Part shown: positions 14,756-32,551 of the stretch, piece after piece
Numbering within the stretch: the stretch's first letter is position 1
Layout: each line of letters starts with the position of its first letter
Source: Planctomycetota bacterium
GTDB lineage: Bacteria; Planctomycetota; PLA2; JAEUHO01
Length of the DNA stretch: 41,920 nucleotides
Assembly: GCA_029259795.1 (NCBI GenBank)
Contig: JAJDEM010000044.1
Coordinates: forward strand, 1-41,920
Direction of reading: 5' to 3'
Program-made: the position numbers and the translations under genes
Notes under the pieces: model-generated
Seen by the model: only the letters and a program-made list of their open reading frames with translations
Database searches by the model: none
What the model was told of the DNA's origin: nothing

Positions 14756-14841
14756 CGAGGGTCTCCCTTGGGGGCATCCAGCGCCGACATCAGGCCCGAG
14801 AGCCTGCTTCGCAGGACGCTCGTCCGGCGGCTCGAAGGATA

Positions 14842-14867
14842 GCCGCACGCCTGGGCGTCGGTGCGGC
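14842..14867. terminator. Strong GC hairpin downstream of the SNF2 gene, possible terminator
   Basis: GCCGCAC (14842-14848) pairs with GTGCGGC (14861-14867), with extra internal CGC/GCG pairing. It lies 110 bases beyond the stop of the SNF2 gene and 87 bases before the start of the hydrolase gene on the same strand. There is no T-run after it, so it would be an atypical terminator. The rest of 14756-14976 shows nothing else I can name. Confidence 0.3.
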
Positions 14868-14976
14868 AGAGAGCTACGGGGTACGCTCGCGGGGCTTGAG
14901 GCTTTCGGCCCAGATACGGCAGCGCATCCAAGCCGTAGGACGCGATCCCGTGGCGCACTCTTCCGCTCGCTCGGAA

Positions 14977-17900
14977 TCAGCCGAGCAGAAGTTCCAGATC
15001 CGCGCGCGTGATCCCGCGCAGCGGCGCATCGTTCACCCCGCCGAGAACGGCTTGGACCAGCTCGCGCTTGCGCGCCTGCAGCTGAAGGACGCGATCCTCC
15101 ACGGTGTCCTCACCGATCAGGCGGTAGACGGTGACCGGGTTCTGCTGCCCCATGCGGTGGGCCCGGCCCACGGCCTGTGCCTCGACAGCGGGGTTCCACC
15201 AGGGGTCGAGAATGAAGACGTACTGCGCGGCCGTCAGGTTGAGCCCGGTACCACCGGCCTTGAGGCTGATCAGGAACGTCGTGACATCCGGATCTTCCTG
15301 GAACCGATCGATGCTCTCGCCCCGCTTGGTCGTCTTGCCGTCGAGGTACTCGTAGCGGATGCTCAGCTCGTCGAGCCGGTCGCGAACGATCGCGAGGAAC
15401 GACGTGAACTGCGAGAAGACCAGCGCCTTGTGCCCGGCGTCGGCGATCTCCTCGAGCATGGGCAGCAGCAACTCGAGCTTGGCCGCCGTCTCGGAGACAC
15501 GCTGCTTGTCGATGAGCCCGGGGTGGCAGGCCGCCTGACGCAGCCTGAGCAGGGCCTCGAGGACGTGCATCTTGGACTTGCCAAGGCCCGAGTTGTCGAC
15601 CTTGCTCAGCACGCTCGCGCGATAGTGCTCGCGGATGCCGTCATAGGCCTGGCGCTGCTCGGGCTGGAGCGCGCAGCGCAAGACCTGCTCCTCGAGCTCG
15701 GGCAGCTCGGTGAGGACCTGCTCGCGGGTCCGTCGCAGGATCACGGGGCGCAACGCGGCTTGCAGCCACGCGATGCGCTCCAGGGAGGGCTTGCCGGTGC
15801 TGCCGAGCAAGGCCTGGAACTCCCGCTTCGTTCCGAGCAAGCCCGGATTGAGGAACGCGAACAAGGAGCCGAGCTCTTCAAGGTGGTTCTCGATCGGCGT
15901 GCCCGAGAGGGCGAGCCTGTGCTTGGCGTCGAGCTGCCGCGCGGCCCGGGCGGTCTTGCTCGTTGCGTTCTTGATGGCCTGGGATTCGTCGAGCACCGCG
16001 TAGTCGAGCGGGATGTCGGCGAGGATCTTGATGTCGCGGCGCATCGTGCCGTAGGTCGTGACGATCAGATCGAGCTTGCTGACATCCTTCAGGGTGTCGG
16101 CCCGGCTCGGCCCGTGATAGCTCGCAACCCTGAGGGCGGGCGCGAAGCGCTCGGCCTCACGAACCCAGTTCGACATGACCGAGCGCGGCGCGACGACGAG
16201 GCTCGGCCCGCGCCGGTCCTTTGCCCGGCGCCGCGGCAACAGGCAGGCAAGAACCTGCACCGTCTTGCCAAGGCCCATGTCATCAGCAAGGCAGCCGCCC
16301 AGGCCCGCCTCGCGCAGGAACGCAAGCCAGCCCAACGCCTCGCGCTGGTAGTCGCGCAGCGTGCCTTCGAAGCTCTTGCTCTCGCGGCGCGCGCGTACGC
16401 CCTTGAAGCCAGCGAGCGTCTCGCGGAGCGCCTCGAAGTCGGCGTCGACCTGCACGTTGGCGAGGTCGTCGAGCAGTATGTCGAGCAGCGGGGCCCGGGC
16501 CCGCGCAACGCGTAGATTCTCCCCCGCCACGGGTGTGGCGGAGAGGGCGCCGAGCGCCTCGAGCCTGGAGATCCACTCCGGCGGTAGCAGGGCCGCTCCG
16601 CCGCCCGCGAGTTCGACGAAGCCGCGACCAGCCCGCACGGCCTGCAGGATGGCGGGCAACGGCAACGCCTCCTGATCGAAGGTCACCTCGCCATCGATGT
16701 CGAACCAGTCGATGCCAGAGCTGACGCGCACGGCCAAGGACCCACCGGACTTCACCGCGCGGCTCTCGACGCGCACGGCCCAGCCCGCTTCGATGAGTCG
16801 CGTGCAGCGCCGTGCAAGGTCTTCGACCGGCATGAGGTAGGGACGCTCGGCCCAGGCGGGGCCGCTCCGGATGCAGCCTTGCTCCGTGAGGGAGGCGAGC
16901 AGGGCCCCTTCGCCTTCGTCGTTGCGCCGCAAGATCCTCGGGATGTCTTCCCGCGTCGTCAGGTAGCGGCTCGGGTCCGCGGCCGAGACGAGCACGTCTC
17001 CGTAGGTGAAGGTCACCGTGCCTTCGGCATGCGGCCCCGGCGGCAGCGAGAGGTCCAGCGAACCGAGGGGCGCCTCGCTCGGCTCCGCCAGCTCACCCAA
17101 CTCGAGCGGGACGCCCCGGGCGACGCTCATCAGGGACTCGAGGAATGCGCCGACGTCTTCGCCGCGGACCTGCATCGCGCCGTCCTCACGCAGGTTGCTG
17201 ACCCAGTCCGAGGCACCGGCGTCGTCGAACGGGCCGACGCCGTCATCGAGAATGGCGATCCCGCCGGGCAGGAGCAGCTGGGCCGCTTCGAGCGGTCGGC
17301 GATCCTCGCCACACACGAGTTCGGCCTCGAGTGAGACGGCGCGCGGATCGGCCGGATCCCCCGCGGGTCTGAGGTTCAGCTCGAAGCGCCACGGGGTCGT
17401 CGACCAGGTCAGCGGCCCACGCCAGTCCCCATCCGCGCCGCGGCAGTAGACCGGCACGATCCCCTGCACGGACTCAAGCGCCCGCGCGGCGTCACGGGGG
17501 GGCACATGGATCCTCGACTGCTCGTTCCAGCGCCAACCAAAGGCCTTGTCGTCGCCGACCTTCGCGATGCGGTAGAGCGCCAGCCGGACGTCCTTGGACA
17601 TCGTGCGGTACTTCTCGAGGGTCGACCACTTCGCCTCGGAGGCCTCGCCGTAGCCACCGCCCTTGCGCGCCTGCTTGCGGGTCAGCGAGAGCACGAGCCC
17701 ACTGTGGGTGACGCACTCGCGCGGGTCGATCCAGAGCTCGAAGAGCTGGGAGCGCGCGCCTTCGCGCCCGACGATCTCCTCCTGGCGGCGGAGGGCCCCC
17801 TGCTCGAGATGGGCAAAGCGCATGCGCCACGACGGCGCCCGACCGCTGGTCAGCCCGCCCGCAGCGGCGGGATCCGCGAGGGAGGTCAGTTGCTCGCCGG

Positions 17901-18207
17901 CCCGAAAGGCGCGGATGGCGGCCGCAGCGTGGCCCTTGGCATCGGCGAGGCAGGCAAACGCCACCGCGTGCTTGCACATCCCCTCGTAGCTCCACGCCGG
18001 GCAGGTGCAGTCGGCCACGAGGCCACTCTCGCCGTATTGCAGCTCGACGTCGTAGCCTTCCGTACCGACCACCACGGCCCGTAGATGGCCGCTGGCGGTC
18101 AACTGAACGCCTCGGACCCGGCCCTCCCGGAAGTAGGTGATCCCGCGCGCGATGGTGCGCTCTTGGGCGTGTTCCTTGCAGAGACGGAGATAGGGGTCAG
18201 CAGACAT
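14977..18207 (-). CDS. SNF2-family DNA-dependent ATPase with N-terminal SWIM zinc finger
   Basis: 1,076 residues. The SWIM finger is DCTCPAWSYEGMCKH, with ligands Cys67, Cys69, Cys78 and His80. A long middle region of about 500 residues has no motif I recognise. The SNF2 motor then starts at about residue 620: Walker A in ADDMGLGKT (Lys648), motif II as DESQ (Asp740, Glu741), ALSGTPIENHLEELGSLF (motif III), FSQFTSFL and LKAGGTGLNL (motifs IV-V), and QAVGRAHRMGQ (motif VI arginines). Such proteins translocate on double-stranded DNA and remodel protein-DNA complexes or RNA polymerase; SWIM fingers bind DNA or protein. The bacterial SWIM-SNF2 architecture is well known (HepA/RapA relatives). The ATG at 18207 has AGGA 10 bases upstream. 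The gene is divergent from the toroid-protein gene. Confidence 0.93.
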   Translation of the reverse strand: MSADPYLRLCKEHAQERTIARGITYFREGRVRGVQLTASGHLRAVVVGTEGYDVELQYGESGLVADCTCPAWSYEGMCKHAVAFACLADAKGHAAAAIRAFRAGEQLTSLADPAAAGGLTSGRAPSWRMRFAHLEQGALRRQEEIVGREGARSQLFELWIDPRECVTHSGLVLSLTRKQARKGGGYGEASEAKWSTLEKYRTMSKDVRLALYRIAKVGDDKAFGWRWNEQSRIHVPPRDAARALESVQGIVPVYCRGADGDWRGPLTWSTTPWRFELNLRPAGDPADPRAVSLEAELVCGEDRRPLEAAQLLLPGGIAILDDGVGPFDDAGASDWVSNLREDGAMQVRGEDVGAFLESLMSVARGVPLELGELAEPSEAPLGSLDLSLPPGPHAEGTVTFTYGDVLVSAADPSRYLTTREDIPRILRRNDEGEGALLASLTEQGCIRSGPAWAERPYLMPVEDLARRCTRLIEAGWAVRVESRAVKSGGSLAVRVSSGIDWFDIDGEVTFDQEALPLPAILQAVRAGRGFVELAGGGAALLPPEWISRLEALGALSATPVAGENLRVARARAPLLDILLDDLANVQVDADFEALRETLAGFKGVRARRESKSFEGTLRDYQREALGWLAFLREAGLGGCLADDMGLGKTVQVLACLLPRRRAKDRRGPSLVVAPRSVMSNWVREAERFAPALRVASYHGPSRADTLKDVSKLDLIVTTYGTMRRDIKILADIPLDYAVLDESQAIKNATSKTARAARQLDAKHRLALSGTPIENHLEELGSLFAFLNPGLLGTKREFQALLGSTGKPSLERIAWLQAALRPVILRRTREQVLTELPELEEQVLRCALQPEQRQAYDGIREHYRASVLSKVDNSGLGKSKMHVLEALLRLRQAACHPGLIDKQRVSETAAKLELLLPMLEEIADAGHKALVFSQFTSFLAIVRDRLDELSIRYEYLDGKTTKRGESIDRFQEDPDVTTFLISLKAGGTGLNLTAAQYVFILDPWWNPAVEAQAVGRAHRMGQQNPVTVYRLIGEDTVEDRVLQLQARKRELVQAVLGGVNDAPLRGITRADLELLLG

Positions 18208-18310
18208 GGGCGAACGATCCTACGGGGTCGAAGCCCGACCCCCGCAGAAGGTCGCTGCCTTGGAATCCAATCGGCCACACAGCACGCGCAGATTCGCGTT
18301 CAATGGGGCG

Positions 18311-20299
18311 ATGCAGCGGCGGGTTCTCCTCCTTCTTCTCCTCGCCCCCCTTCTCGTCTGCCTGACGGCGCCCACGCGGGCAGCAGCCGATGACTTCGGG
18401 GAGACCGAGCACAGGCTGAAGACCGCTGGGATCGAGCCGGACCTCCGGAAACGGATCCATGCGGGCATTGCACGTGCCGTCGCCTGGCTCCGCGCGAAAC
18501 AGAACCCCAGGAAGGGGAGCTTCTCGCGCGACATCGGGCATACCGTCCTGGCCGCCCTCGCGCTGCGCCACGCGGCCACACCGGCGGCCCTCGAAGGCTC
18601 GGCTGCTGCGCTGGTGTGGCTACGCAAGTACGCCGAGGGGCACCTGCAGTCGCGTACGTACGAGGGCGGCATCGCGGCCATGCTCCTTGACGCCAACAAG
18701 AGCGACGACGCCCTGGGGCGCAAGATCCACAAGCAGCTAGCGATCGGGCCAGGCAAGAGCGGCTGGTGGGGCTACTCGCCAAGTGGCACCCACGGGAGAG
18801 CCAATCTATCGACGGCCCAGTTTGGCGCGCTGGGGCTCTGGGCGACCGAGCGCCGCGGCGCCCCCCTTGCCCGCGCCGCGTGGCTGCGGCATCTCAGCGG
18901 CACGATGCGAGAGCAACTCGCCGATGGCTCCTGGACCTACGCACCGCTGGGCGGCGGCCAGCAGAACGCGCGCTACGGGGGGTACGCCACCGGGACCTTC
19001 ATGGGCTACGCCGGCATCGTGCTCGCCAGCAACGCGCTCAAGGACGACATGCCCGAGGACGAGGACTTCCTCGCACGCCTGGCAATCGTGAGCGCGCGCG
19101 CCGAAGGCGCGCTGCGCCGCGATGTGCAGGCTGTGCTCGGGTCCCCTGGCACGGCCCTCACCATGAGCACCAACCTCTTCTATCGCATCTACGCACTGGA
19201 GAAGGCGTGCGTCTTCGCGGGTCACACCGATGTGGGCGGCGTCGACTGGTATCGGGAGGGCGCCAACATCCTCCTGCGTGGCCAACTCCGCGATGGCGGC
19301 TGGGGGGTTACGAGCCTCGGCGGCGCCACGGTGCGGCGCCCGGGCACGCCCAGGGTCACCGTACGGTCCAACACGATCCAGACGGCCTTTGGACTGCTGT
19401 TCCTGTTGCGCGCCTCGGAGAGCTACCGACCGCTCACGCCGCGTCCCGTCGACCGCAAGCCGGTCACGACGCCCACCGGCGACGAGCCGCCCGAACCCGA
19501 AGACCTCCCGCCTCCGCCGCCGCGCTTGAGCATCGCGAACAAGATCCTCGATCGCCTCGAGGCGCACTTGGGTGCCCCTGGCGTTCCTCGACTCGCGCCC
19601 TACCTGAGCGCCTTTCGCTTCATCAGGCGCACCTATCCCAGGGCTCGCACGAAAGACGGCTTCCTCTCCCCAGAGCACGACGCGTGGTGCCGGCGCGCCG
19701 ACGCGCTTCTCCTACGGGCCGTGACCCACTTCACCGCAGCGCCCGGTAGCGCGCGTGGACCCGCCGTCTCCTTGGAAGCCCTCAAGACGCTCGCCGTCTC
19801 GCACCCGCGGGTCGGCCTGCTCCTCATGCGTCGCGTCGCGACCATGCGCCACGACAGGTCTTTCTCGCGGCACCTGCACTCCGCTTGGTACGCAGCGGCG
19901 TTCGAAGCCCTCCGGCGACTCGCGCCCGCGGGGATCGATGCGTGGCTGGCTGGGCGCATGGTCACGCCCGATCTCAAGCAGGCCGTCCGCTCCAGAGCGG
20001 CGCTTGTCACCCTCGGCGGTCGCGCGTTCTTCATGACCGGCGCCCAGCGCCACGCGACCGCCCGCAACCTGCTCGCCGGCCTCCGCCCCCTCTTCATTCG
20101 CGGCGCCATCACGGACCCCGGCCTCAAGCGCATGGTGCGCGCGCTGGCGTTCACCCTCCAGCGCCTTGCCACCCCCGCCGCCGAGCAGGGCCTGGCCCTC
20201 AATCACCACGCCGGCCTCGCCACCCACGACGCGCAGGCAATCATGCGCTGGTGGCAAGCGTGGCGCGCGCCGACGGCATCGATCTGGCAGGACCGGTAG
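18311..20299 (+). CDS. Exported protein with terpenoid-cyclase (prenyltransferase/squalene oxidase) repeats
   Basis: 662 residues from ATG 18311, chosen because a signal peptide follows directly (MQRRVLLLLLLAPLLVCLTAPTRAAA, cut before DDF). The longer frame to 18206 overlaps the SNF2 start. Residues 50-400 are alpha-helical repeats of the alpha/alpha-toroid type with QW-like motifs: QLADGSWTY (about 202) and QLRDGGWGV (about 325). A Pro-rich linker (EPEDLPPPPP) leads to a helical C-terminal half of about 250 residues that I do not recognise. Exported proteins of this kind are abundant in Planctomycetota, have no known enzyme activity and lack the DxDD/DxxDD acid motifs of squalene-hopene cyclases. 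It is probably a periplasmic binding or structural protein. Its gene is followed 9 bases later by the RusA-like gene. Confidence 0.8.
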   Translation: MQRRVLLLLLLAPLLVCLTAPTRAAADDFGETEHRLKTAGIEPDLRKRIHAGIARAVAWLRAKQNPRKGSFSRDIGHTVLAALALRHAATPAALEGSAAALVWLRKYAEGHLQSRTYEGGIAAMLLDANKSDDALGRKIHKQLAIGPGKSGWWGYSPSGTHGRANLSTAQFGALGLWATERRGAPLARAAWLRHLSGTMREQLADGSWTYAPLGGGQQNARYGGYATGTFMGYAGIVLASNALKDDMPEDEDFLARLAIVSARAEGALRRDVQAVLGSPGTALTMSTNLFYRIYALEKACVFAGHTDVGGVDWYREGANILLRGQLRDGGWGVTSLGGATVRRPGTPRVTVRSNTIQTAFGLLFLLRASESYRPLTPRPVDRKPVTTPTGDEPPEPEDLPPPPPRLSIANKILDRLEAHLGAPGVPRLAPYLSAFRFIRRTYPRARTKDGFLSPEHDAWCRRADALLLRAVTHFTAAPGSARGPAVSLEALKTLAVSHPRVGLLLMRRVATMRHDRSFSRHLHSAWYAAAFEALRRLAPAGIDAWLAGRMVTPDLKQAVRSRAALVTLGGRAFFMTGAQRHATARNLLAGLRPLFIRGAITDPGLKRMVRALAFTLQRLATPAAEQGLALNHHAGLATHDAQAIMRWWQAWRAPTASIWQDR

Positions 20300-20308
20300 G
20301 CTCTCGGC

Positions 20309-20851
20309 GTGCTCGAACCCAAGAAGCCCACACCCGACGATCTGGATCGGCTCCTGCTAGCCACACGAGACGACGAAGCGCTCGGGGGCGTGAACATCCA
20401 TGCATTGATCGAGCTTGCCAAGCGCGGGCTTCACGCCGTCGGCGGCGAGCTCCTTCTCGACCCCATCGACATCCGGGGTGTCATCGGCAACAGCGTTCCG
20501 ACGAGTCCACGCGGCAAGCAGACGACCGTTGCCTGGAAGCGGCTCGTGATGCGAACGGTCAAGGCAGCTCGCGGCGACGGACCGCTCGACCCACTGGTTC
20601 CGCGGGTCGTAGAGATCCACTTCGAGTTCCACCGCAGCAACCACGGCGGCCACGACTGCGACGCCGAGAACTTCGTCAAGCCCACCGCCGACGCCATCGC
20701 GGCCGGCCTCTTCTGCCCCAACGACCTCGAACCCGAAGACGTCCGACGCTTCGCATTCGACGACACGCGCTTCAGCGTCATCCCCTACCGCATGGACGAT
20801 CCCGCCACCGCTGGGGAAGAGGGCGTCACCGTCATCATCCGCGAGGCGTAG
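20309..20851 (+). CDS. RusA-like Holliday-junction resolvase fold protein
   Basis: 180 residues from a GTG at 20309, 9 bases after the preceding stop. The segment IHFEFHR followed by DCDAENFVKPTADAIAAGLF (Asp116, Asp118, Asn121, Lys124, Asp128) and then DDTRFSVIPYRM (Asp151/Asp152) has the order of RusA: a strand, DxDNxxKxxxDAL, and a later acidic pair before a strand. RusA cuts Holliday junctions symmetrically using three Asp residues and a Lys. The DxD-to-Asn spacing is two residues longer than in E. coli RusA, and the N-terminal 95 residues (with SPRGKQTTVAWKRLVMRTV) are extra. RusA genes are usually phage-borne, but there is no phage context here. Activity is an inference. Confidence 0.55.
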   Translation: MLEPKKPTPDDLDRLLLATRDDEALGGVNIHALIELAKRGLHAVGGELLLDPIDIRGVIGNSVPTSPRGKQTTVAWKRLVMRTVKAARGDGPLDPLVPRVVEIHFEFHRSNHGGHDCDAENFVKPTADAIAAGLFCPNDLEPEDVRRFAFDDTRFSVIPYRMDDPATAGEEGVTVIIREA

Positions 20852-20881
20852 CCGGCAAGCCTCGCACGCGCTCGCGGCGGC

Positions 20882-23869
20882 CTACACCGCGCCCCAGAAG
20901 ATCCAGCCGGCCCAGTAGTAGGGCGCTGCCCAATGCGCCTTGCCATGCTTGTCCTTGTGAGTCCGCACGACCTCCTGGGCCTCGCGGAGCGCGTCGTGCA
21001 ATGAGCGACCCTTGCTACGCTCGGTGTAGAAGGCCGTCATGAGTACGGACGTCGCCTTGTCATCGGCAGGCCAGAGACTCGTGAGCAGTCTCGGGCAACC
21101 CGCGGCCATGGCGGCGCGGACGAACCCGAGCAGGCCTACGCCGTCGCGATGCTGAGCGCGACCGACGTCGCAAGCCGACACGACCGTCAGATGGGCGCGC
21201 AGCTTGAGCGCGAACAGCTCGCTGGCGGTAAGAAACCCGTCGTCCTCGTCGGTCGGTGACAATGCCACGCAGGTCAGGCCGGGCGTTCCGTCGTCGACGA
21301 TGCCATGGCAGCCAAGGTGAACAACGTCCCAGACCTCGTCGGTGGCGAGTTGTCGTTTCAACTCCGTCTCCGAAGCCGCCGCGCGCAGAAGGCGAATGCC
21401 CTTTTGCCCGATGAGCTTGCTGCTTTCAGCGCCGCTGTGCTCCAAGCGCGGGAGATACCTGGAACCGGGCGCCCAGGGGACGGTGCGGCCGCCGACGGCC
21501 TTCTCGTAGAGAGGGTCGCCCATGGCGAGCGAGCGCCCGCCCTTCTCGGGACGCAAGGTCCGCGCCTGAAGAAGCGAGGTCGCCGAGGGCACTACGGTGA
21601 TGTCAAGCCGCGCTGCGCGTGCGACCGGAAGGCTCGACCACGGAACGACCGTCAGGGGTCCGGCCGGGCTCACGTAGAGGCGGCGGATCGAGGCAGGAAG
21701 TGCCAGATCTTGGATCAGACGCTGCTCGATGACGGCGATTGGACGCTCATACTGCTCGCGTGTCATGTCGCCGACCGAGCGCTGAAGCGTCTCACATGCG
21801 GCCTCGACCTCTGGCCACTTCTTGAGTACCGGAGTCCGCGCGCCAGCCTTGGTAACCACCAGCACGCTCGCAGCCCCGGCGTGCACGTCGTAGAGTGCGA
21901 TGGCCTCGTCGGAAGCAAGCGCCTTGCGTACGGTCTTCAACACCGCCGCCTTCGGGTAGGCGAGCGCAGCCCGGGAGCCCGCCTGTCTCTGGATGCTCGT
22001 GATCACATCCAGGAAGGCCGTTTGCGCGGCATCCTTGGCCGCACGCGCATCAGCGACTCGCTTGTCCCGAAGGCTGCGTCCGAACCGGCTGTGCAACAAC
22101 AGGTAGCGCTCACGCGCAGCCACAAGCACACGCTGGGCCTTTCGCTCGCGGGCCCGTAGCTCTGGCTTCAGATCCAAGCCTCGCGCAAGGTGGCTGCCGC
22201 CCATGGCGCGAACCAGCAGGCGAGCCCGGCCCGCTTCGTAGGCTTCGAACTCAAGCGCCCTGTCGTTCGATGCCCGAGCAGCGCGCCCCCAGACGCGGAA
22301 GATCCGCGCGCGCTCGCGCTCCGACCGGACGCTGATGTCTTCCTCATCCGCAAGGCCCAAAGTGGACTCGTCCATGAGCGCCATCGCCGCCTTGGCCTGC
22401 TTGACCGCCGCGACAGGCCTACCCGCTTCGAGCTCAAGCTCCGCCAACCGGCCGTGGATCGAGGCTCCCAGGTCCAGGATCTCTTGCGCTTCGGTAACGA
22501 GGCGAGCCGCGTCGAGGCGAGCCCGCGCAGGCTTCCACTCTCCCAGGCCGATATGCGCAACTGCCGCCGTGAAGTGCGCCCAGGCGGCATCCTTGGTTCC
22601 CGCCGGCAGCATGGCGAGGCCCTGGGTCGCGTCGGTGAGCGCCGCCCGCCAATCCGCGCGCTCCACATGCAGCGCGAGCGCCCGATACATGTGCAGCCAG
22701 CCTACGAACTCGGGCTCGTTCATCTTCTGGAACGCAACCCGCGCGTCCTCAAGGCTGCTTGCAGCCGCCTTGAAGTCACCCGTCGCCGCGAAGGCCAGCC
22801 CCAAGTTTGCCCGCAGCGTGGCGTCGAATGTCGGGTCCAGCTGGCCGCTCTTCAAGAGGTGGCCGCCTCGCTTGATGGCACTGGTGTATCGGCCCATGTC
22901 GATGAGCAACGACACCAGCGTGTAGCCGGCATTCCTCTGCGTGACGGCGGCATCCACTGCATCTTCCTCGGCCACCCCTTCTGACGCGGCGGCCCGGCCC
23001 GCCTCGACAGCGGCACGTTCGCAGGTCGAGAGCGCCTCTGCATAGCGCCCCAGGTGACCGAGTGCGGTTGCCAGGTGCACCCGCGCCGCTGCCGCCTGCG
23101 CCAAGGGTCCATGTTCGTCGAAGTGCGAGATGACACGGCGCAGACTCGTCACTGCGCCTCGAGGAGAACCCTCCCTCAGCGCGAGGAACGCGTCGAAGCG
23201 ATCGACATGCCGCTCCTCCGCTACGACCTGCATCGCCTTGGCAACGAGGCGCAGGTCACGGAGCGTGGCTCGGGCATCTCCGAAGCGCGCCTCGTCCTTA
23301 AGGATGAAGAACCGGCCATGCAAGGCCACCGCCTGGCCTCGCAGCCAACCCAACTCACGGGCCACGCGCTCCATATCGCTGTAGGACGCGAGCGCATCCT
23401 CGAGCTTGCCGAGCGCAGTTGAGGACTCTGCGATGGCGTGGCTGCGCATCCAACCGAGCACGCTTGGGGCGGCGGGCGGGCGGGCTGCCAGAAGCCCTAG
23501 GACTCCCTCATGGTCACCCGCAGCAAGAACGTCGATCGCCTCAACGATGGCGCGCCGAAGCAGCGGCTGCGCTTGGGACGGGGCGCGAGCGTAGCGCAGA
23601 AGGCCATCGCGATCTGGTTGGCGTAAAGCACCGGCATAGGTAACCGCAGCCCGTGTGAACCCATCTGCGAGCAGCCGATCGACGATTTGCCATGGCACTA
23701 CGGCAGGCGGCGACGCCAGGCGACGAAGTGTGGCGTCGTCGCCTTCGCGAGCAGCCTTCAGGGTGCTTGCGAACAGCTCCGCATGGACGTCCGCGTCACC
23801 AGATGCGACGGGCGCTCCCCAGCCCAGGCCAAGGATCAGGATCCACGGCCCAAGGCGAAGAGCACGCAT
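20882..23869 (-). CDS. Exported TPR-CHAT cysteine protease
   Basis: 995 residues. The N-terminus MRALRLGPWILILGLGWGAPVASG looks like a signal peptide, so the protein is probably periplasmic or secreted, unlike the best-studied CHAT proteins. Residues 30-560 are helical repeats with TPR character, for example GRYAEALSTCERAAVEAGRA, AALTDATQGLAML and GLAFAATGDFKAAASSLEDARVAF. A coiled-coil-like linker (about 570-640) precedes the CHAT domain: His855 in VHLGCHGIVDD and Cys900 in VVSACDVG form the protease dyad. The C-terminus is YYWAGWIFWGAV. It is last in a minus-strand series after two metzincin proteases and a lipoprotein, with a gap of only 22 bases to the lipoprotein gene. It resembles the truncated CHAT protein at the left edge. 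Substrate and trigger are unknown. Confidence 0.9.
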   Translation of the reverse strand: MRALRLGPWILILGLGWGAPVASGDADVHAELFASTLKAAREGDDATLRRLASPPAVVPWQIVDRLLADGFTRAAVTYAGALRQPDRDGLLRYARAPSQAQPLLRRAIVEAIDVLAAGDHEGVLGLLAARPPAAPSVLGWMRSHAIAESSTALGKLEDALASYSDMERVARELGWLRGQAVALHGRFFILKDEARFGDARATLRDLRLVAKAMQVVAEERHVDRFDAFLALREGSPRGAVTSLRRVISHFDEHGPLAQAAAARVHLATALGHLGRYAEALSTCERAAVEAGRAAASEGVAEEDAVDAAVTQRNAGYTLVSLLIDMGRYTSAIKRGGHLLKSGQLDPTFDATLRANLGLAFAATGDFKAAASSLEDARVAFQKMNEPEFVGWLHMYRALALHVERADWRAALTDATQGLAMLPAGTKDAAWAHFTAAVAHIGLGEWKPARARLDAARLVTEAQEILDLGASIHGRLAELELEAGRPVAAVKQAKAAMALMDESTLGLADEEDISVRSERERARIFRVWGRAARASNDRALEFEAYEAGRARLLVRAMGGSHLARGLDLKPELRARERKAQRVLVAARERYLLLHSRFGRSLRDKRVADARAAKDAAQTAFLDVITSIQRQAGSRAALAYPKAAVLKTVRKALASDEAIALYDVHAGAASVLVVTKAGARTPVLKKWPEVEAACETLQRSVGDMTREQYERPIAVIEQRLIQDLALPASIRRLYVSPAGPLTVVPWSSLPVARAARLDITVVPSATSLLQARTLRPEKGGRSLAMGDPLYEKAVGGRTVPWAPGSRYLPRLEHSGAESSKLIGQKGIRLLRAAASETELKRQLATDEVWDVVHLGCHGIVDDGTPGLTCVALSPTDEDDGFLTASELFALKLRAHLTVVSACDVGRAQHRDGVGLLGFVRAAMAAGCPRLLTSLWPADDKATSVLMTAFYTERSKGRSLHDALREAQEVVRTHKDKHGKAHWAAPYYWAGWIFWGAV

Positions 23870-23891
23870 TACCCGTGGTATCCGCCGGCCC

Positions 23892-24596
23892 CTACGGCTT
23901 GGCCGCTGAGGTCGCCAGGATACCGGTGGCGTGCGAAGTTGTGGTTCCGTGGGGATCGTCTGACCACACCTTGTTCACGGGATCCCATGTGAAGTAGATG
24001 ATGTCGTACTCGATCCAGTAATCGAAGTTGGAGCCGTTCGGCTTGACCTTCAGCTCCATGAGTACTTCTGCGATGTGCTTGTTGTAGGCCGGCGCCGGCA
24101 GATCAATCACGAACGACGGAATCACCGTCATCTTGAGCGTGGGCGTCTCGGCGAGGGCCAGATTGCTGAAGACAAGGCTCGGATGGATGTAGCCCGGCGT
24201 GTACGCGACATACTCGTAACCCGCATCGCCCGAGTGCCCGCTGCCCAAGGCGCCGGGGCTGTTGCCATTGGGGATGCGCTGCGGGAACGGCCCGATGGGG
24301 GCTGTATTCACGACCGGGCTGCCGTGCAACCCACGACTTCCTGCGCCGTAGAGGTACGGCTTTACGTCCCGCGCCGAGCGGTTCTTGAGGCGAACGACCT
24401 TGGCCGTCGGTCCGCTGCCCGAGTCTTTGAAGTAGTCTCCGATGCTCCCGAGAGGCCCTCCACCGTCATCCTTGGGCTTGCAGCAATCATCGCCGATGCA
24501 GGCAGAGCCAAGCAAGGCGAGGGCCGGTAGGAGCAGAAGGGCTAGCAGGCCTCTCCTGCTCAACTCAGGTCGATACCAACGGCGTGCAGTCCTCAT
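23892..24596 (-). CDS. Putative Tat-exported lipoprotein, unknown function
   Basis: 234 residues from ATG 24596 with GGAGG 7 bases upstream. The signal region has SRRGLLALLLLPALALLGSAC: a twin-arginine-like SRRGLL motif and a lipobox with Cys33. The mature protein starts IGDDCCKPKDDGGG and is rich in Gly, Pro and Ser. I do not recognise a family. The C-terminal part, with ALAETPTLKMTVIPSFVID and DYWIEYDIIYFTWDP, looks like a beta-sandwich. It sits between the metzincin gene (30 bases upstream) and the TPR-CHAT gene (22 bases downstream), so the three are probably one transcript. A role as binding partner, anchor or substrate of the proteases is only a guess. Confidence 0.75.
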   Translation of the reverse strand: MRTARRWYRPELSRRGLLALLLLPALALLGSACIGDDCCKPKDDGGGPLGSIGDYFKDSGSGPTAKVVRLKNRSARDVKPYLYGAGSRGLHGSPVVNTAPIGPFPQRIPNGNSPGALGSGHSGDAGYEYVAYTPGYIHPSLVFSNLALAETPTLKMTVIPSFVIDLPAPAYNKHIAEVLMELKVKPNGSNFDYWIEYDIIYFTWDPVNKVWSDDPHGTTTSHATGILATSAAKP

Positions 24597-24603
24597 GCGC
24601 AGT

Positions 24604-24608
24604 CCTCC
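24604..24608 (-). promoter_or_regulatory. Ribosome binding site deciding the lipoprotein start
   Basis: GGAGG on the minus strand, 7 bases before the ATG at 24596. It makes the upstream in-frame ATG at 24620 unlikely. Confidence 0.6.
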
Positions 24609-24626
24609 ATGGGACCCCAATCCCCT

Positions 24627-26027
24627 CTACGGGACAGGATCCAGGTTGTTTCCCCAGTTCGCAAAGAGCCTGAGATTCTTCCTGATGACCCTTGCGTTGT
24701 TTGCCGTCCCCACCTCGCCGACCGCGACGCCCGCAGAGTCCCCCTCCGGGTCCGTCTTGTTGGGGTTGCTGAAGACACGTTCCAGCACGCAGCTCGCGTT
24801 CTCCGAAGCCTTCCCCATCAGGGTGCAGCGGCGCTGTGACACAAAGTAGGACCCGCCAGTAATCCAGTCGGTCACCTCGACCTGGGCGAAGTACACGAAG
24901 CCGTGACCGTAGGCATCCCGCGGATTGTCCGGATCCGTGTTGTGTTGGCAAGCGAAGTTGTGGGCGACCTCGTGTGCCAAGGCGACGCCCCCCTCCATGT
25001 TGAGCCAACTCGTAATACTGTAGGCGCGCTCCGCGAAGTACCCATCGCCGGACTTCCAGATCTCCCCCTCGCCGAGATCGTTCATCCGGCTCCGAGCAAC
25101 GAGGACCGTCACGACGTCGGCCTTCTGGTCATAGCGAGTCCTGCGGAGGTCCTCGACAGCCTGGACGTCGGCCAGCAGGTCGACGTCGGAGGCGCCGTTC
25201 TCGTCCATGTCGACCAGCACGAAGCCCGTGACGCAGATCATGGTCGAGACCCCGCTCCGGCGCAACGCGTCGTTGAAGGCGCAGACGGCCGTGCCCGTTC
25301 GCGCGCGAATGATCGCCTCGTCGGAGTTGACGTCTGCAAGAACGTCGTTGGTGTAGCCCACCAACAGTTCGATCCGCGATCCGTCTTCGCTATTGTCCCG
25401 CTTCTTCCAGCGGCTGAGCGGTGGCCGCATGGGGCGCGGCGGACGCGGCGGGAGATCGGGTGGCGGGGGCAGGTCCAGCGGTTGGCGCGCGGCAGCCTTG
25501 CCTCCCAGCCGCACCCGCGGCATGTCCCGCCTAAGGTAGAGAACGCCACCCTGGTAGGGCAGCGTCGTCGCTGTGTACTCCAGAATCCGACCGCGGTAGA
25601 ACACGACCAGGTGCGAGGTGAATCGCTTGGCCTGCTTGAACTCGCCCTCCCAAGTGAAGGACATGAACGCTTGATACGAGCCCTGGTTGGCTGGGCTGGA
25701 GTATGCGATGACGCGCGGCATGCACCGACACGTCAACTTCATATGGATCGAGACGTCGTGCAGCTCGGGAAGGTCGACGCTGGCCCAGATGCTGGGCGCA
25801 CCGATGGAGCCGGTGATGCTCCGCCGGTTGAACCGTGCGAGGCCAAGCCTCTCACCCTTGCGTCCCAGGGCATAGCCACGCATGTGCCGCATGCGCTTGT
25901 GGGTCATGTGTCCATCGGGAAGCGCCTGGAAGACCTCAATCGGATGGGCCTCGTCAGCGTGGGCAGCCACGGTGTCGAGGCACAGCAGGATCGCAGGGAC
26001 AAGCCATCCAATGACGCGCACATGCAT
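24627..26027 (-). CDS. Exported metzincin-type zinc metalloprotease, paralog A
   Basis: 466 residues from ATG 26027, with a signal peptide (MHVRVIGWLVPAILLCLDTVAAHA). The N-terminal 170 residues contain CRCMPRVIAYSS and FMSFTWEGEF and may be a propeptide or substrate-binding region. A Pro-rich linker (LPPPPDLPPRPPRP) separates it from the catalytic domain, which starts RIELLVGYTNDVLADVNSDEAI, as in reprolysin-like (M12B-type) proteases. The zinc site is HEVAHNFACQH (His352, Glu353, His356, His362). The metzincin glycine between the second and third histidines is Ala here (Ala359), while paralog B has Gly. The domain ends with cysteine-containing sequence around RRCTLMGK. It is 30 bases upstream of the lipoprotein gene and 142 bases downstream of paralog B. 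Confidence 0.88.
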   Translation of the reverse strand: MHVRVIGWLVPAILLCLDTVAAHADEAHPIEVFQALPDGHMTHKRMRHMRGYALGRKGERLGLARFNRRSITGSIGAPSIWASVDLPELHDVSIHMKLTCRCMPRVIAYSSPANQGSYQAFMSFTWEGEFKQAKRFTSHLVVFYRGRILEYTATTLPYQGGVLYLRRDMPRVRLGGKAAARQPLDLPPPPDLPPRPPRPMRPPLSRWKKRDNSEDGSRIELLVGYTNDVLADVNSDEAIIRARTGTAVCAFNDALRRSGVSTMICVTGFVLVDMDENGASDVDLLADVQAVEDLRRTRYDQKADVVTVLVARSRMNDLGEGEIWKSGDGYFAERAYSITSWLNMEGGVALAHEVAHNFACQHNTDPDNPRDAYGHGFVYFAQVEVTDWITGGSYFVSQRRCTLMGKASENASCVLERVFSNPNKTDPEGDSAGVAVGEVGTANNARVIRKNLRLFANWGNNLDPVP

Positions 26028-26169
26028 GAGGCGAGTGCTCCAATCCGCGGCCCATTGAACGCCAATGAACACCGAAAAATCAAGCCCACGGGCACCTTGG
26101 AGGCCCGTCGTGGCCTAACAAGCGAGTTGTGCGGCCAACCATGTCGATCAGGCGTCGGGTGGACACGGG

Positions 26170-27552
26170 TCAGGGCACGCGCCGGAGGCCGTTGCCCCAG
26201 TTTGCGAAGGTCCGAAGCCCTTCGCGGATGGCGCGCGCGTTGTCACGTCGCTCAGCGACACCCGTCGGCTGCGCTCCCTCGCCCTGCTCAGGCTCAGAGA
26301 CCAGCGGCGAACTGAACACAGGCACCGGCTTGCATGACCCGTTGGCCGGCGGCTTCCCAAGGATCGTGCAACTCGGCTGGTCGACCAGTTTCGGCCTGTC
26401 ATCACCCCAGACCACAGTCTTCTTCCTCCAGACGAAGAAGTGGCCGTGACTCCACGGGCTCCTGGGGCGGCATGGATCCAGATTGTGCTGGCATCCGAAG
26501 TTGTGGGCGACCTCATGCGCCAGCGCAAAGCCCCCGTCCAGATACAACCAACTCGTGATGCTGTAGGCGCGCTCGGCGAAATCGTCGTCTTCCGCCTTCC
26601 GGATCTCGGCCTCGCCCCAGTCGTTCGAACGCCGGCGGGCGACCAGCACGGAGACCGCATCGGCCCGCAGACGCCTCCGCTCGCGCCGAAGCGCGGCTAC
26701 ACCCTGAACGCGTGACAGCAACTCGGGATCACTTGCCGTGCCTTCTTCGAACTGACTCAACGCCATGAAGTCGAGGACGCAGATCTTTGTGGGAACACGG
26801 CTCCGACGCAACGCCTCGTTGAAGAAACAGACGGCGTTGGCGACCCGCGCCACAATGCGAGTTTCGTCGGATCCCGCAGCGAGCGAAACCTGGCGCGTGT
26901 AACCAATCAGCAGATCGATGCGTGTTCCGTCGTCTCGTTGTTTGCGCCGCATGTCAGGCGGCCGCCTGCGGGTGAGACGAGCGGGCAGGCATGGCGTCGA
27001 GCGCTTGCTCGCGAGCTTCGCGCTGGCAAGTGAGAGTGGCGCGTCCCGCCACACGTAGAGGACGTCGTCCCTGTAGGCATGCGGCGTAGCCATGTATTCG
27101 CGGAGGCGGCCGCGGTGGAAGACGACCAGGTTCGTCGTGTACTTCCGGGCCAGCCCCTTCCCCGGCCGGAGAACGAAGGACATGAACGCGCGGGGCTCGC
27201 CGGGCTTGCCAACACTCGCGTAGCTGATCGCACCGCGCACGCAGCGGCATCCCCGGACGAAGCGCAAGACGCGGGACTCGTCATCGGCGAGTTCGAGCCG
27301 GATCGTCAGCCGCGGCTTGCCGATCATGGGCCCCAACTGCCCCCAGTCCACAAACGCCAGGCCGAGCGTCTCCCTGGAGCGCCCTGTTCGAAAGCCGCTC
27401 CTCACAAGCATCTGATCGTCAGTCCAATCCAGCTTGGGCAGGGAGGAGACGGCCGTCATGCCGGCGTTGTCGTCAGCGCGGACCACAGTGGGGTCGACAA
27501 AGAGCGCGAGGAGCGCCGCGAGCAGGACGAGAGAGAGGAAACGCACTGCCAT
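26170..27552 (-). CDS. Exported metzincin-type zinc metalloprotease, paralog B
   Basis: 460 residues from ATG 27552, with GGAG 8 bases upstream and a signal peptide (MAVRFLSLVLLAALLALFVDPTVVRA). It has the same domain order as paralog A: an N-terminal region with CRCVRGAISYAS and RAFMSFVLRPG, a basic linker (RLTRRRPPDMRRKQ), then RIDLLIGYTRQVSLAAGSDETRI. The zinc site is complete, HEVAHNFGCQH (His346, Glu347, His350, Gly353, His356), the metzincin HExxHxxGxxH. Shared stretches such as FAERAYSITSWL and ALAHEVAHNF show a tandem duplication. Both are probably secreted or periplasmic endopeptidases. The longer frame to 27750 was rejected because it lacks a signal peptide start. It is first in the minus-strand series ending with the CHAT protease. 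Confidence 0.9.
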   Translation of the reverse strand: MAVRFLSLVLLAALLALFVDPTVVRADDNAGMTAVSSLPKLDWTDDQMLVRSGFRTGRSRETLGLAFVDWGQLGPMIGKPRLTIRLELADDESRVLRFVRGCRCVRGAISYASVGKPGEPRAFMSFVLRPGKGLARKYTTNLVVFHRGRLREYMATPHAYRDDVLYVWRDAPLSLASAKLASKRSTPCLPARLTRRRPPDMRRKQRDDGTRIDLLIGYTRQVSLAAGSDETRIVARVANAVCFFNEALRRSRVPTKICVLDFMALSQFEEGTASDPELLSRVQGVAALRRERRRLRADAVSVLVARRRSNDWGEAEIRKAEDDDFAERAYSITSWLYLDGGFALAHEVAHNFGCQHNLDPCRPRSPWSHGHFFVWRKKTVVWGDDRPKLVDQPSCTILGKPPANGSCKPVPVFSSPLVSEPEQGEGAQPTGVAERRDNARAIREGLRTFANWGNGLRRVP

Positions 27553-27848
27553 GGGCCATGCTCCGCTGGGAGCACCAGTGGACGCCAAGCAGGGCCACCA
27601 AATCAAGCCTGCGCCGCTGCCGTCAGTTTCGGGGCGTGTGCCGCGCTCTGGCAGGAGGTACTGCGCTGCTAGATTGGGCGCCGAGGCGCCGGCGACCGTC
27701 CGGCCGGCAGTCCTGCTGCTCTCCAAAGAAGGGGATGCGACGTGAACCACCCGCCTGAGAGACAGCCGACACCCGACCGAATGACAACGGCGTGGCCGCT
27801 ACGGCGAGGGCTCGCAAGGCCCGCGATCTCCAAGCCGTAGGGCAATCC
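27553..27848. other. Divergent intergenic region between paralog B and serB
   Basis: The longest gene-free stretch (296 bases). It must hold promoters for both flanking genes, but I see no convincing -35/-10 pair. GGCGCC-GA-GGCGCC at 27677-27690 is a GC-rich dyad that could be an operator or hairpin. Several overlapping frames are open here, but none has family features. Confidence 0.4.
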
Positions 27849-28508
27849 ATGGCGACCGTCATCTTCGACTTCGACAGTGTGCTGATTCCGTGCGAGAGCC
27901 TCGAGGTGGTGCTGGCGCGGAGCGCGGGGCTCACCGACGAGGACTTCGCGGCCATCGAGGCGCTGACCACAGCGGGCATGGAGGGGCGGATCTCGTTCGC
28001 GGAGTCGCTGGAGCAGCGGCTGGCGATCGCGCAGCCGAACCTGGGGACGCTGATGGCCTTTGCCTGGCGGCTCGCGGAGAAGCCCACAGCGGGCGCGGCC
28101 GAGCTGATCGCCACGCTCACGGCCCAGGGCCATGAGGTGTGGATCGTCAGTGGCGGGTTCCAGGAGATGCTCTCTGAGGTCGGGAGCAGCCTGGGTGTTG
28201 CGGCAGATCGGATTCACGGCGTCCAGGCCCGCTGGAGCGACGACGGCGCGTTCGAGGGTCTCGCTCCCGACTCGGCGTTTGGTCGCTCCAAGGTCGAGGG
28301 GTTGACCGCACTTGGCGCGGCCTATCCCCGTCCGGCGATCGGTGTGGGCGACGGCGCCACGGACCTCGCATTGCGTACGGCCGGCTTGGTCGACGCGTTC
28401 GTGGCCTACACCGAGCACGCGCGCCGGGAGCCCGTGGCTGCCGGCGCCGACGCGGAAGCCCGCTCGATGGAAGCCCTCGGACTGCTGCTCGGCGAGTTGC
28501 TTGCCTAG
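27849..28508 (+). CDS. serB: Phosphoserine phosphatase (HAD superfamily)
   Basis: 219 residues from ATG 27849. HAD motif I is FDFDSVLIP (Asp7 nucleophile, Asp9 acid/base), motif II is VSGGF (Ser101), motif III is Lys148 in GRSKVEGL, and motif IV is GVGDGATDLAL (Asp168, Asp172). The cap region with FAESLEQRLAIAQP after motif I matches SerB-type enzymes. The enzyme hydrolyses O-phosphoserine to serine, the last step of the phosphorylated pathway. The context supports this: SerA and SerC lie 2.8 kb downstream on the same strand. Other HAD phosphatases of this subfamily use other phosphomonoesters, so the call relies partly on the neighbours. The stop at 28508 is 3 bases from the end of the convergent barrel gene. 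Confidence 0.85.
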   Translation: MATVIFDFDSVLIPCESLEVVLARSAGLTDEDFAAIEALTTAGMEGRISFAESLEQRLAIAQPNLGTLMAFAWRLAEKPTAGAAELIATLTAQGHEVWIVSGGFQEMLSEVGSSLGVAADRIHGVQARWSDDGAFEGLAPDSAFGRSKVEGLTALGAAYPRPAIGVGDGATDLALRTAGLVDAFVAYTEHARREPVAAGADAEARSMEALGLLLGELLA

Positions 28509-28511
28509 GCG

Positions 28512-30437
28512 CTACGAGTCGCTCTTCGTCCCGAGCTCGGTCTCGAAGCCGACCCAGACGGTGTGCGCGTCGTCGCCTGAGAGGAACTTCGCCATGTCGT
28601 AGCTGTACTGGATGCGCAGCCGGATCGCCGGGTTCATCGTATTGACCAAGCGGATCTTCGACTGGTTGAACGCGATCGGAATGATCGCCAGGGCAGAGAT
28701 TCGCTGACGGTCGTGGCGGAGCGGGTCCGCCTCCCGCCCGCTGAAGGTCGACGCCCCGCTCGTGGCGTCGAAGCCGACGAACGAGTCGCGCGCCCCCGTG
28801 GCGTAGTCGTAGCGCACACCGACGGCCATGTTCCGCGTGACCGATGTGACGGCCTGCGCGTAAAAGCCCCAGTCTTCGAGCTCGTCCTTCGAGAGAACGT
28901 TGGGGTTGCCTCCGCCGTCGACCGCGCTGTAAGCGTCTGTCCGAATCCGGCGGTGCATGATCTCCGCAACGAACATCGTGCGGATGCCGTTGCGGGAGGC
29001 GTCGACGATGTCGACGCGCACGTCGCCGCCGAACACCGTGGTGTGCCCTTCCTTGCCCGTGTTGTTCGGGCCGAACATGCCGGACCCGCCGATCTGCATG
29101 GCCGTGCAACCATTGACCGGAAGGACATGGGCGACGCGGCCGTGCCAGACGAGATCGGAGAAGTTCTTGCCCTCCAACTTCACCGAGTGCCAGATCTTGG
29201 AGAGGCCACCCATGCTGAAGCCGGTAAGCTCGGCCTCTGCCTGATCGAGGTCTTGGGCTCCGATATGGATGCGCAGCCGGCGGGCCACATCGTGGATGGC
29301 GAAGTCGGCTCCGATCGACTTGAAGCCGTCCTTGCCGAGGACGCGCGTGCGGATGATCGGTGAGTCCACGAAGTGCCACGCGCCGTCGGTGTACATGTTG
29401 TGGATGCCGAAGGGAGCCCGATACGTACCGGCCGCCAAGGCAAACCCCGAGGCCACCTCGGAGAAGAGCGAGGCCTCCTCGACGTCGATTTCGGTCAGAT
29501 CGCCGGACACGCTGTCGACGACCGAGTTGAAGCGCAGATCGCCGCCCAGGTACTCATCGAAGAGATCCGCTCCGGCCTGCGTCGTCACGACATGCGCGAA
29601 GAACCCACGCGACTTGGGGTCGAGTTCGCCCTGCTGAAGGATCGGAAGCCGCTTGTCGTCGGTGCTCGAGCCGCCATACATGATCCGAGCCGAGGCACTC
29701 ACGTACCACGGGACGCGCATGCCCCCGAGCTGGATGGCGGACGGCGAGACGCTCTCGGCCGCCGGGCCCGCGGCAGACGAGTAGCGCGAGAAGCCCACCG
29801 ACTGCGCACGCGGCATGGGCGCGCCCGTCTGCGGGAGGCTGCGGGCCAGGGGTCCGCCGCGGGAGTCGGCGTTGTACAGGCGAGACGGGGTTCGGCTCCC
29901 GCGGGCCGCGATGGAGCCTGCGTATGGCCGCGCCTCATGGCCCAGCATGCCGACCCCTCCCGAGTTGCCCTCGCGGAAGAACGGCTGACGCGGCGTGCTT
30001 CGACCGCGTCGCGGGAGCGTGTCCAGCATGGGCAAGGAGAACCAACGCCGTTCGAATTGACGCGGCCGCGCGAGCCGCTGCTGGGCCTCGATCACGGCCG
30101 CGCCATAGGCATCTTCGTAGGCTTGTCGCACCGACGGCGCCACGGGCCGCACGGCAGAGTGGCCCGGTGTGCGAACCAGGGGCTGCATCGGCACACGCCA
30201 GCCATGGTCCACGACGCGTGCGGTAGCCCTGGGGTCGGCAACGACCCCATAGGTGATCCCGCCAGCGCCGTTCGGCGGGCGGGAGGGACAGGGGATGTCA
30301 TCCCGAATCGAGTCCCGGACGTACTCCACCACAGGCCCCTCCTCATCAGCGAGGGCTACCTGCACCCCATGACCCCCAAGCACTAGCACCCCTTGAATCG
30401 CAAGGGCGTATGCCAACGTCGAATGCAGCAGTCTCAT
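28512..30437 (-). CDS. Probable outer-membrane beta-barrel protein with a long N-terminal extension
   Basis: 641 residues from ATG 30437; a GTG one codon upstream is possible. A signal peptide (about residues 1-30) is followed by some 220 residues rich in Arg, Pro and Ser with low complexity. From about residue 240 the sequence alternates polar and apolar residues with aromatic girdles, as in a porin: WYVSASARIMYGG, DWGFYAQAVTSV, MAVGVRYDYATG, LRIQYSYDM and HTVWVGFETELG near the C-terminus. Many strands start and end with Tyr, Trp or Phe. It lacks a terminal Phe after the last strand, ending TKSDS instead. I do not recognise a specific family; a channel or adhesin role is possible. It follows a lipoprotein gene by 36 bases, and both have G-rich leaders. 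Confidence 0.7.
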   Translation of the reverse strand: MRLLHSTLAYALAIQGVLVLGGHGVQVALADEEGPVVEYVRDSIRDDIPCPSRPPNGAGGITYGVVADPRATARVVDHGWRVPMQPLVRTPGHSAVRPVAPSVRQAYEDAYGAAVIEAQQRLARPRQFERRWFSLPMLDTLPRRGRSTPRQPFFREGNSGGVGMLGHEARPYAGSIAARGSRTPSRLYNADSRGGPLARSLPQTGAPMPRAQSVGFSRYSSAAGPAAESVSPSAIQLGGMRVPWYVSASARIMYGGSSTDDKRLPILQQGELDPKSRGFFAHVVTTQAGADLFDEYLGGDLRFNSVVDSVSGDLTEIDVEEASLFSEVASGFALAAGTYRAPFGIHNMYTDGAWHFVDSPIIRTRVLGKDGFKSIGADFAIHDVARRLRIHIGAQDLDQAEAELTGFSMGGLSKIWHSVKLEGKNFSDLVWHGRVAHVLPVNGCTAMQIGGSGMFGPNNTGKEGHTTVFGGDVRVDIVDASRNGIRTMFVAEIMHRRIRTDAYSAVDGGGNPNVLSKDELEDWGFYAQAVTSVTRNMAVGVRYDYATGARDSFVGFDATSGASTFSGREADPLRHDRQRISALAIIPIAFNQSKIRLVNTMNPAIRLRIQYSYDMAKFLSGDDAHTVWVGFETELGTKSDS

Positions 30438-30473
30438 CACTCACCCCCCAGTTCCAAGGCACGCACGCGACGA

Positions 30474-31160
30474 TCAACGCTTGACCGGCAGGAAATCGAT
30501 CTCACCCATTTTTACTTTCGCGTAGTCATCCACGAGGATCGCGTCATAGGGACTTCCCGCAGGTTCAAGACGCTTGGTCGTTGCGTCGATCTGCAATATC
30601 TTCTGGCCGCGCGAGCTGACGACCGCGAGCAGCGTCGCGATCGAGCGTCCCTTGTCGTCGACCCCGATGTCGACGACGAGCACAAGCGAACAATCCTGAA
30701 GTACGCCAGCGCAGTCAGCTGTCGAGCACGACGGTCGAATGCAGATGTCGACCGTCCTGCGTCCCCCCAAGCAGGCGATGGAACTCGTCAGCACCACCGA
30801 GGGAGGCTGGAACGAGTACGCCGTCGTGTGACGCCAGAACGTGCGAGCGTCATAGAGGTCTCGGACGATTCTGTCGTGGATGGGCCCCGATTTGAGATCC
30901 GACTCGTCGGGCGCGTCGGCGAACTCCTGCACCACCACTTGGGCGAACGCTGCGGCGCAGACCAGATCCCGCCAAGCCTGCGGCTGATTGCAGTCCCCGC
31001 ACCGTTGTGCGGCAGGCGTGCAGAGCATCGCGCCGCGCACCTCCGATGCGAGGCGGCGGTTGGCATCCGAAGGAGGCACCCCGGACACGCACCCCGCACA
31101 AGCGAGAATCAGCCCGGCCCCCACGACCGTACACACCCACGAACCCACGCGACCGCCCAT
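30474..31160 (-). CDS. Cysteine-rich putative lipoprotein, unknown function
   Basis: 228 residues from ATG 31160, preceded by a run of G that could act as Shine-Dalgarno. The signal peptide is MGGRVGSWVCTVVGAGLILACAGC with two possible lipobox cysteines. The mature part has at least ten cysteines, among them RCGDCNQ and CIRPSCSTADCAGVLQDC, likely forming disulfides in the periplasm. The C-terminal half is beta-rich, with LVLVVDIGVDDKGRSIATLLAVVSS and KILQIDATTKRLEPAG. I do not recognise a family. The gap to the barrel gene is 36 bases, so the two are likely co-transcribed and may work together at the outer membrane. It is divergent from serA. Confidence 0.65.
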   Translation of the reverse strand: MGGRVGSWVCTVVGAGLILACAGCVSGVPPSDANRRLASEVRGAMLCTPAAQRCGDCNQPQAWRDLVCAAAFAQVVVQEFADAPDESDLKSGPIHDRIVRDLYDARTFWRHTTAYSFQPPSVVLTSSIACLGGRRTVDICIRPSCSTADCAGVLQDCSLVLVVDIGVDDKGRSIATLLAVVSSRGQKILQIDATTKRLEPAGSPYDAILVDDYAKVKMGEIDFLPVKR

Positions 31161-31284
31161 GGCACCCCCCCCCACGACCCGCGCCTGCAGTCCCTGCAAC
31201 ACCGCGAACGGCGCGGTTCTAGCATGTTTGCCGCCCGCGCGGCAAGCGCCGCGGGCTGGGGGGGCCCCTTGCGATCCTCTGGCG
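31161..31284. other. Divergent intergenic region between the Cys-rich lipoprotein gene and serA
   Basis: 124 bases holding a 9-C run (31165-31173) and a run of 7 G followed by CCCC (about 31257-31267). Promoters for both directions must lie here or overlap the genes, but no clear box can be picked out. The homopolymer runs make it a place for slippage or sequencing error. Confidence 0.4.
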
Positions 31285-32520: not shown

Positions 32521-32536
32521 CCTCCCGGGCTGCCCC

Positions 32537-32543
32537 AAGGAGG
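32537..32543 (+). promoter_or_regulatory. Strong ribosome binding site for serC
   Basis: AAGGAGG 8 bases before the GTG at 32552. It fixes the serC start within a frame that is open far upstream through serA. Confidence 0.75.
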
Positions 32544-32551
32544 AGCACGCG

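Follow-up and report, generated by a model that had tools for sequence, protein, structure and literature searches.

The question raised by this locus is whether a CHAT-domain protease with a signal peptide works together with all the exported proteins encoded beside it, or whether the functional unit is smaller than the gene cluster. The window, i.e., the whole stretch of 41,920 nucleotides that was analyzed, is the complete contig G000:C356 of the draft genome of an uncultured Planctomycetota bacterium (4.3 Mb, 417 contigs, 89% complete), which is labelled G000 in the comparisons. On its minus strand, the genes of metzincin 1, metzincin 2, a small lipoprotein and a TPR-CHAT protein follow each other in this order with gaps of 142, 30 and 22 bp (Table 1). 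The gene coordinates thereby confirm the arrangement of four same-direction genes at 20882-27552, from which the initial annotation had proposed an envelope protease module acting as a proteolytic cascade. The codon-position composition supports all four frames as real genes, and no promoter-like or terminator-like sites were found in the gaps between them. All four products carry export-type N-termini, in agreement with the signal peptides described for them before; signal peptides were judged by a simple home-made rule throughout. The same rule calls about 39% of the other genes with 250 aa or more in the sampled loci exported, so that a run of four such genes is only mildly unusual. At positions 3-1655 of the plus strand, the contig start truncates a second TPR-CHAT gene, of which the 3' part is left, with a CHAT domain matching at E 3.5e-54.

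Table 1. Features of the gene cluster in the window and companion genes at related CHAT loci
Feature	Position	Strand	Description
Metzincin 1	26170-27552	(-)	460 aa; signal peptide, N-terminal domain with CxC motif, catalytic domain; M12B/reprolysin-like
Zinc site HEVAHNFGCQH, metzincin 1	26485-26517	(-)	residues 346-356; exact HEXXHXXGXXH
Metzincin 2	24627-26027	(-)	466 aa; tandem paralogue of metzincin 1
Zinc site HEVAHNFACQH, metzincin 2	24942-24974	(-)	residues 352-362; Ala for usual Gly
Small lipoprotein	23892-24596	(-)	234 aa; SRRGLL motif, LLGSAC lipobox (Cys33)
TPR-CHAT protease, very probably exported	20882-23869	(-)	995 aa
TPR region, part with Pfam TPR matches	22739-23185	(-)	about residues 229-377
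CHAT domain	20891-21730	(-)	residues 714-993; H855 and C900
Second companion family, members	L040 4235-4813; L044 8406-9023; L046 8362-8964		directly upstream of TPR-CHAT genes
PEGA-domain lipoprotein loci	L037 13045-15000; L062 7295-7973; L095 1832-3748; L098 69-1967		

The HExxHxxxxxH sites reported for the two metzincins are intact, with the three zinc histidines and the glutamate kept in both. At the Met-turn, metzincin 2 keeps the methionine (CTLMG at residue 401), while at the same position of metzincin 1 it is replaced by a leucine (CTILG, residues 395-399). The two proteins show 44% identity, and a paralogous DNA repeat (24931-25122 and 26474-26665, 72%) lies within the pair; except for metzincin 2, no full-length homologue of metzincin 1 was found. 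Pfam Reprolysin profiles score below the cut-off for these proteins (best 20.2 bits versus 22.4). Among curated profiles, both proteins match Mep72 (E 9e-10 and 2e-8) and CpaA best. The Mep72 scores of 37.7 and 33.2 bits do not reach the equivalog level set by a cut-off of 645, and only the catalytic half is similar, over positions 2-223 of the 573 in the profile. By sequence comparison the best solved relatives are the snake-venom adamalysins, and a structure model of a metzincin has a pLDDT of about 35. A plasmid origin was considered and rejected, with one distant plasmid match only. The metzincins are read as M12B-like secreted metalloproteases specific to this genome among those compared. 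They would probably be zymogens that are secreted and function autonomously, without having to act on the CHAT protein.

Their distribution bears directly on the module. Neither metzincin 2 nor a profile of both metzincins found a match in the 16 other genomes of the order, and a contig scan for metzincin 2 revealed no relative. A phylum-wide sample of 392 genomes yielded 14 distant relatives of the catalytic domain (E 1e-13 to 1e-6) in 13 other genomes. No CHAT gene was present near these 14 loci in the stretches read, which extend to about 10 kb on either side at most and are shorter at contig ends. A single match to the CHAT profile near these metzincins (L149:8012-8833) is by sequence a DnaJ-type protein. 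Another tandem metzincin pair (L154, 7733-9262 and 9287-10795) is encoded, without CHAT, in a distant Planctomycetota genome. The initial annotation had itself proposed to look for co-occurrence of the four families within 10 kb and to take its absence as a refutation, and for the metzincins such co-occurrence is absent from the related genomes searched. With metzincins in none of the relatives, the cluster is not conserved as a module of four genes, and the reading as a conserved envelope unit was rejected.

The surroundings of the cluster were compared as well. The adjoining gene (27792-28508) encodes a HAD-family, SerB-like phosphatase, and serA- and serC-like genes follow beyond it. In G003, G004, G006 and G008, serB-like or serA-/serC-like genes keep each other's company, and in the relatives the serine-biosynthesis genes have different genes on the side where the window has the metzincin-lipoprotein-CHAT stretch; in G007, this side is occupied by a different TPR-CHAT gene. 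Taken together with the absence of the metzincins, this indicates that the stretch is specific to this genome among those available. A gene for a 642-aa protein without Pfam match (28512-30440, minus strand) lies between the serB-like and serA-like genes of the window, unlike in some relatives, where the two are adjacent.

The CHAT domain of the window protein matches PF12770 with E 4e-47 and 161 bits versus a cut-off of 24, and weak TPR matches are found upstream of it. The His-Cys dyad ascribed to the protein is indeed intact, with H855 in the motif GCHG and C900 in SACD, and both residues are invariant in 13 aligned relatives; no solved CHAT structure was reached by sequence search. A signal-peptide-like N-terminus is present in the window protein and in most of its paralogues, which agrees with the earlier view that this CHAT protein is exported, and judged from the sequence it very probably is.

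The N-terminus of the lipoprotein (SRRGLL...LLGSAC) fits a reading as twin-arginine signal plus lipobox. The lipobox follows a hydrophobic signal region and has Gly at -3, a weaker form; the counterpart in G008 has LGSC. Of the Tat-type lipoprotein described initially, the arginine pair and the lipobox stand for the window protein. The G008 counterpart lacks the two arginines, so that Tat export does not appear to be conserved. No known family was matched by the window lipoprotein, and its structure model is unusable with a pLDDT of 35. The closest CHAT protein in any genome searched is G008:C50 from another genus (37% over residues 34-994, E 1.5e-158), encoded in record JANQJW010000014.1 of the metagenome-assembled genome Planctomycetota PL25a_bin.13. 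There, the gene of a 219-aa lipoprotein with the lipobox LLGSC lies directly 5' of the CHAT gene, and upstream of it a ribose-phosphate pyrophosphokinase-like gene is found, not metzincins. The two lipoproteins have the motif K-VR-KN---R-VKP in common. Their similarity is weak but exceeds chance when this one pair is compared (BLASTP E 0.01; shuffle p 0.009), and a ranking against controls placed it at 5 of 280. A genome-wide search with the window lipoprotein did not find the G008 counterpart, and a match in G011 was dismissed as chance, as it lies in an integrase/PIN-type stretch without lipoprotein. A contig scan for the CHAT pair returned two loci.

In the CHAT tree, the window protein and the G008 protein form one clade with a support of 1.0, and the CHAT protein of G007:C43 falls in a neighbouring clade. 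The product of a small gene located 4 bp 5' of this G007:C43 CHAT gene, in which no lipobox is evident, is a clear relative of the G008 lipoprotein, with a local score of 60 that exceeds those of all 161 controls. The nearest CHAT homologue, like the window CHAT, is thus immediately preceded by the gene of a small lipoprotein, which lends modest support to the link between the two genes and to the lipoprotein-CHAT half of the original proposal.

The window protein belongs to a large family. The window genome contains 25 CHAT domains above the Pfam cut-off, and relatives of the window CHAT are present in 16 of the 17 genomes of the order, and a single genome can have up to dozens of them. Many of these TPR-CHATs share a DPWLVA-x-L-type stretch near the N-terminus. 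By the simple rule, export-type N-termini are found on 56 of the 72 TPR-CHATs with intact 5' end; among the other genes of the same loci that reach 250 aa, the count is 113 of 289 (p 3e-9). This and the following p value are indicative only, since the controls stem from the very loci that hold the CHAT genes and sequences that are related do not count as independent. The exported CHAT protein, presented at first as an oddity, is therefore the usual form in a paralogous family of the order. Five TPR-CHAT matches in a row lie within 16 kb in G002:C6:114366-129880 (L099, G002:C6:111000-130990). In the limited part of the literature covered, no description of an exported TPR-CHAT family with companions was found.

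Further companion genes accompany other subclades. Small genes of a second companion family, with no Pfam match and no evident signal peptide, are located 7-41 bp upstream of three CHAT genes in G000, G006 and G008, whose products form their own clade (support 1.0). As the CHAT proteins beside this family in L044 and L046 have a signal peptide, companions may not all meet their CHAT protein. In a third clade (G000, G004, G006, G008), a PEGA-domain lipoprotein is encoded downstream of CHAT, and the CHAT proteins of L037, L062 and L095 (G000, G006, G008) themselves show a lipoprotein-type N-terminus; hem-type genes are found near these loci. On the same strand and no more than 60 bp upstream, 15 of 70 CHAT genes have a gene for a product of up to 245 aa, versus 25 of 278 other genes (p 0.006), and most TPR-CHATs surveyed (55/70) have no small companion. 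A family common to all companions was considered because of an apparent motif R-x-R-F-F-N in the G007, G009 and G011 companions. When hhalign and local alignment were compared with controls, only two pairs rose clearly above the rest, G007-G008 with a strong and window-G008 with a weak similarity, and one common companion family is therefore not claimed. The wider pattern, a lineage-wide expansion of exported TPR-CHATs with clade-specific companions, is the more interesting result.

Our main reading, to which we assign a probability of about 0.5, is that two genes form the core of the locus: that of a small lipoprotein anchored in the envelope and, immediately 3' of it, that of an exported TPR-CHAT cysteine protease. 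The lipoprotein would be a dedicated partner of the protease, either as substrate or as tether, and the metzincins a genome-specific addition. The unit would be part of the expanded exported TPR-CHAT family of the order, some subclades of which have their own companions. Most likely, the TPR solenoid would serve to bind the lipoprotein, or else a ligand that the latter presents. The CHAT domain would cleave the lipoprotein or something tethered by it outside of the cytoplasm. By analogy with Csx29 and Csx30, the partner would likely be the substrate itself or an anchor bringing the substrate. The metzincins would be additional secreted proteases acquired or retained only in this genome. Binding of the partner, its cleavage and the place where the protease acts, as well as the zymogen nature of the metzincins, are inferred, and so would be any proteolytic cascade, to which only the adjacency of the genes points. 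A broader version, in which subclades of the extracytoplasmic TPR-CHATs of the order, up to dozens per genome, each cleave their own co-inherited envelope-anchored partner in surface sensing or response, extends the same analogy and is put forward tentatively, as one possibility.

If the four genes instead formed one operon for an envelope proteolytic cascade, with the CHAT protease or a metzincin activating the other, this would account for the common strand, the short gaps, the four export-type N-termini, the intact active sites and the gaps in which no promoter-like or terminator-like site was found. We regard it as quite improbable, since the metzincins are missing from all relatives of the order that have CHAT relatives, 0 of the 14 distant metzincin loci have a CHAT gene within the roughly 10 kb read per side, and the lipoprotein-CHAT pair of G008 occurs without metzincins. 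The last point likewise argues against the lipoprotein being a dedicated, BamI-like inhibitor or chaperone of the metzincins beside an independent CHAT gene, as the weakly similar lipoprotein adjoins the nearest CHAT homologue where there is no metzincin. What speaks for such a role is that Mep72 and CpaA are the best curated profiles for both metzincins; CpaB is the counterpart of BamI for CpaA. Furthermore, bamI is cotranscribed with the Mep72 gene, and its product binds Mep72 and relieves its toxicity in E. coli (PMC4334185). With at best 37.7 of the 645 bits of the Mep72 cut-off and a lipoprotein that matches no known family, this role is very doubtful.

Independent genes for exported proteins might also have come to lie in the same direction by chance in a variable genome stretch. 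CHAT genes are numerous, with 25 domains in the window genome, exported proteins are common in the sampled loci (39%), and next to the serine genes the relatives have other genes at this site. Against this stand the companion genes that travel with CHAT subclades, the enrichment of small same-strand upstream neighbours of CHAT genes and the gap of only 22 bp between lipoprotein and CHAT, which make a mere neighbourhood unlikely. The two-gene unit of lipoprotein and TPR-CHAT protease is the reading we prefer.

With the paralogues of the order, such as G008:C50, G008:C72 and G006:C7, the window CHAT protein shares the signal peptide, the DPWLVA-type stretch, the TPRs and the CHAT domain, while companion genes differ and most paralogues have none. 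The metzincins resemble the adamalysins/reprolysins of family M12B (atrolysin C, adamalysin II), with which about 150 residues of their catalytic domain, the zinc motif among them, can be aligned; they differ in scoring below the Pfam Reprolysin cut-off, in the missing Met-turn methionine of metzincin 1 and in having no domain following the catalytic part. The Mep72-BamI pair of Pseudomonas aeruginosa is similar in that a secreted metzincin, the best curated profile for both window metzincins, is encoded adjacent to a small gene. However, the score is far below the cut-off, only the catalytic half is similar and the counterpart of the small window gene in G008 goes with the CHAT gene.

A parallel to the pair is Craspase (CASP), in which the TPR-CHAT protease Csx29 acts with Cas7-11 in a CRISPR complex on the substrate Csx30 and was understood through this partner encoded in its locus (PMC10028731). 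The window protein also combines a TPR region with a CHAT cysteine-protease domain and has a partner gene beside it. In contrast to the cytoplasmic Csx29, it has a signal-peptide-like N-terminus by the simple rule and its putative partner is a lipoprotein; for a protein outside the cytoplasm, one would not expect RNA to guide the trigger. Of the Craspase setting, with Cas7-11, a crRNA array and Csx30/Csx31 encoded together, no sign was seen: eight window proteins had no match to the defence-system profiles of PADLOC, and no CRISPR-like repeats were found in 14000-33000 of the window. A defence reading was rejected. Many exported-looking TPR-CHATs occur in the whole order, some with a dedicated small partner gene adjoining; they offer concrete protease-partner pairs to test and suggest that caspase-like proteases are used at the cell envelope. 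If the broader version put forward above is correct, these pairs would be an extracytoplasmic counterpart of the Csx29-Csx30 protease-substrate pair, serving in surface sensing or response.
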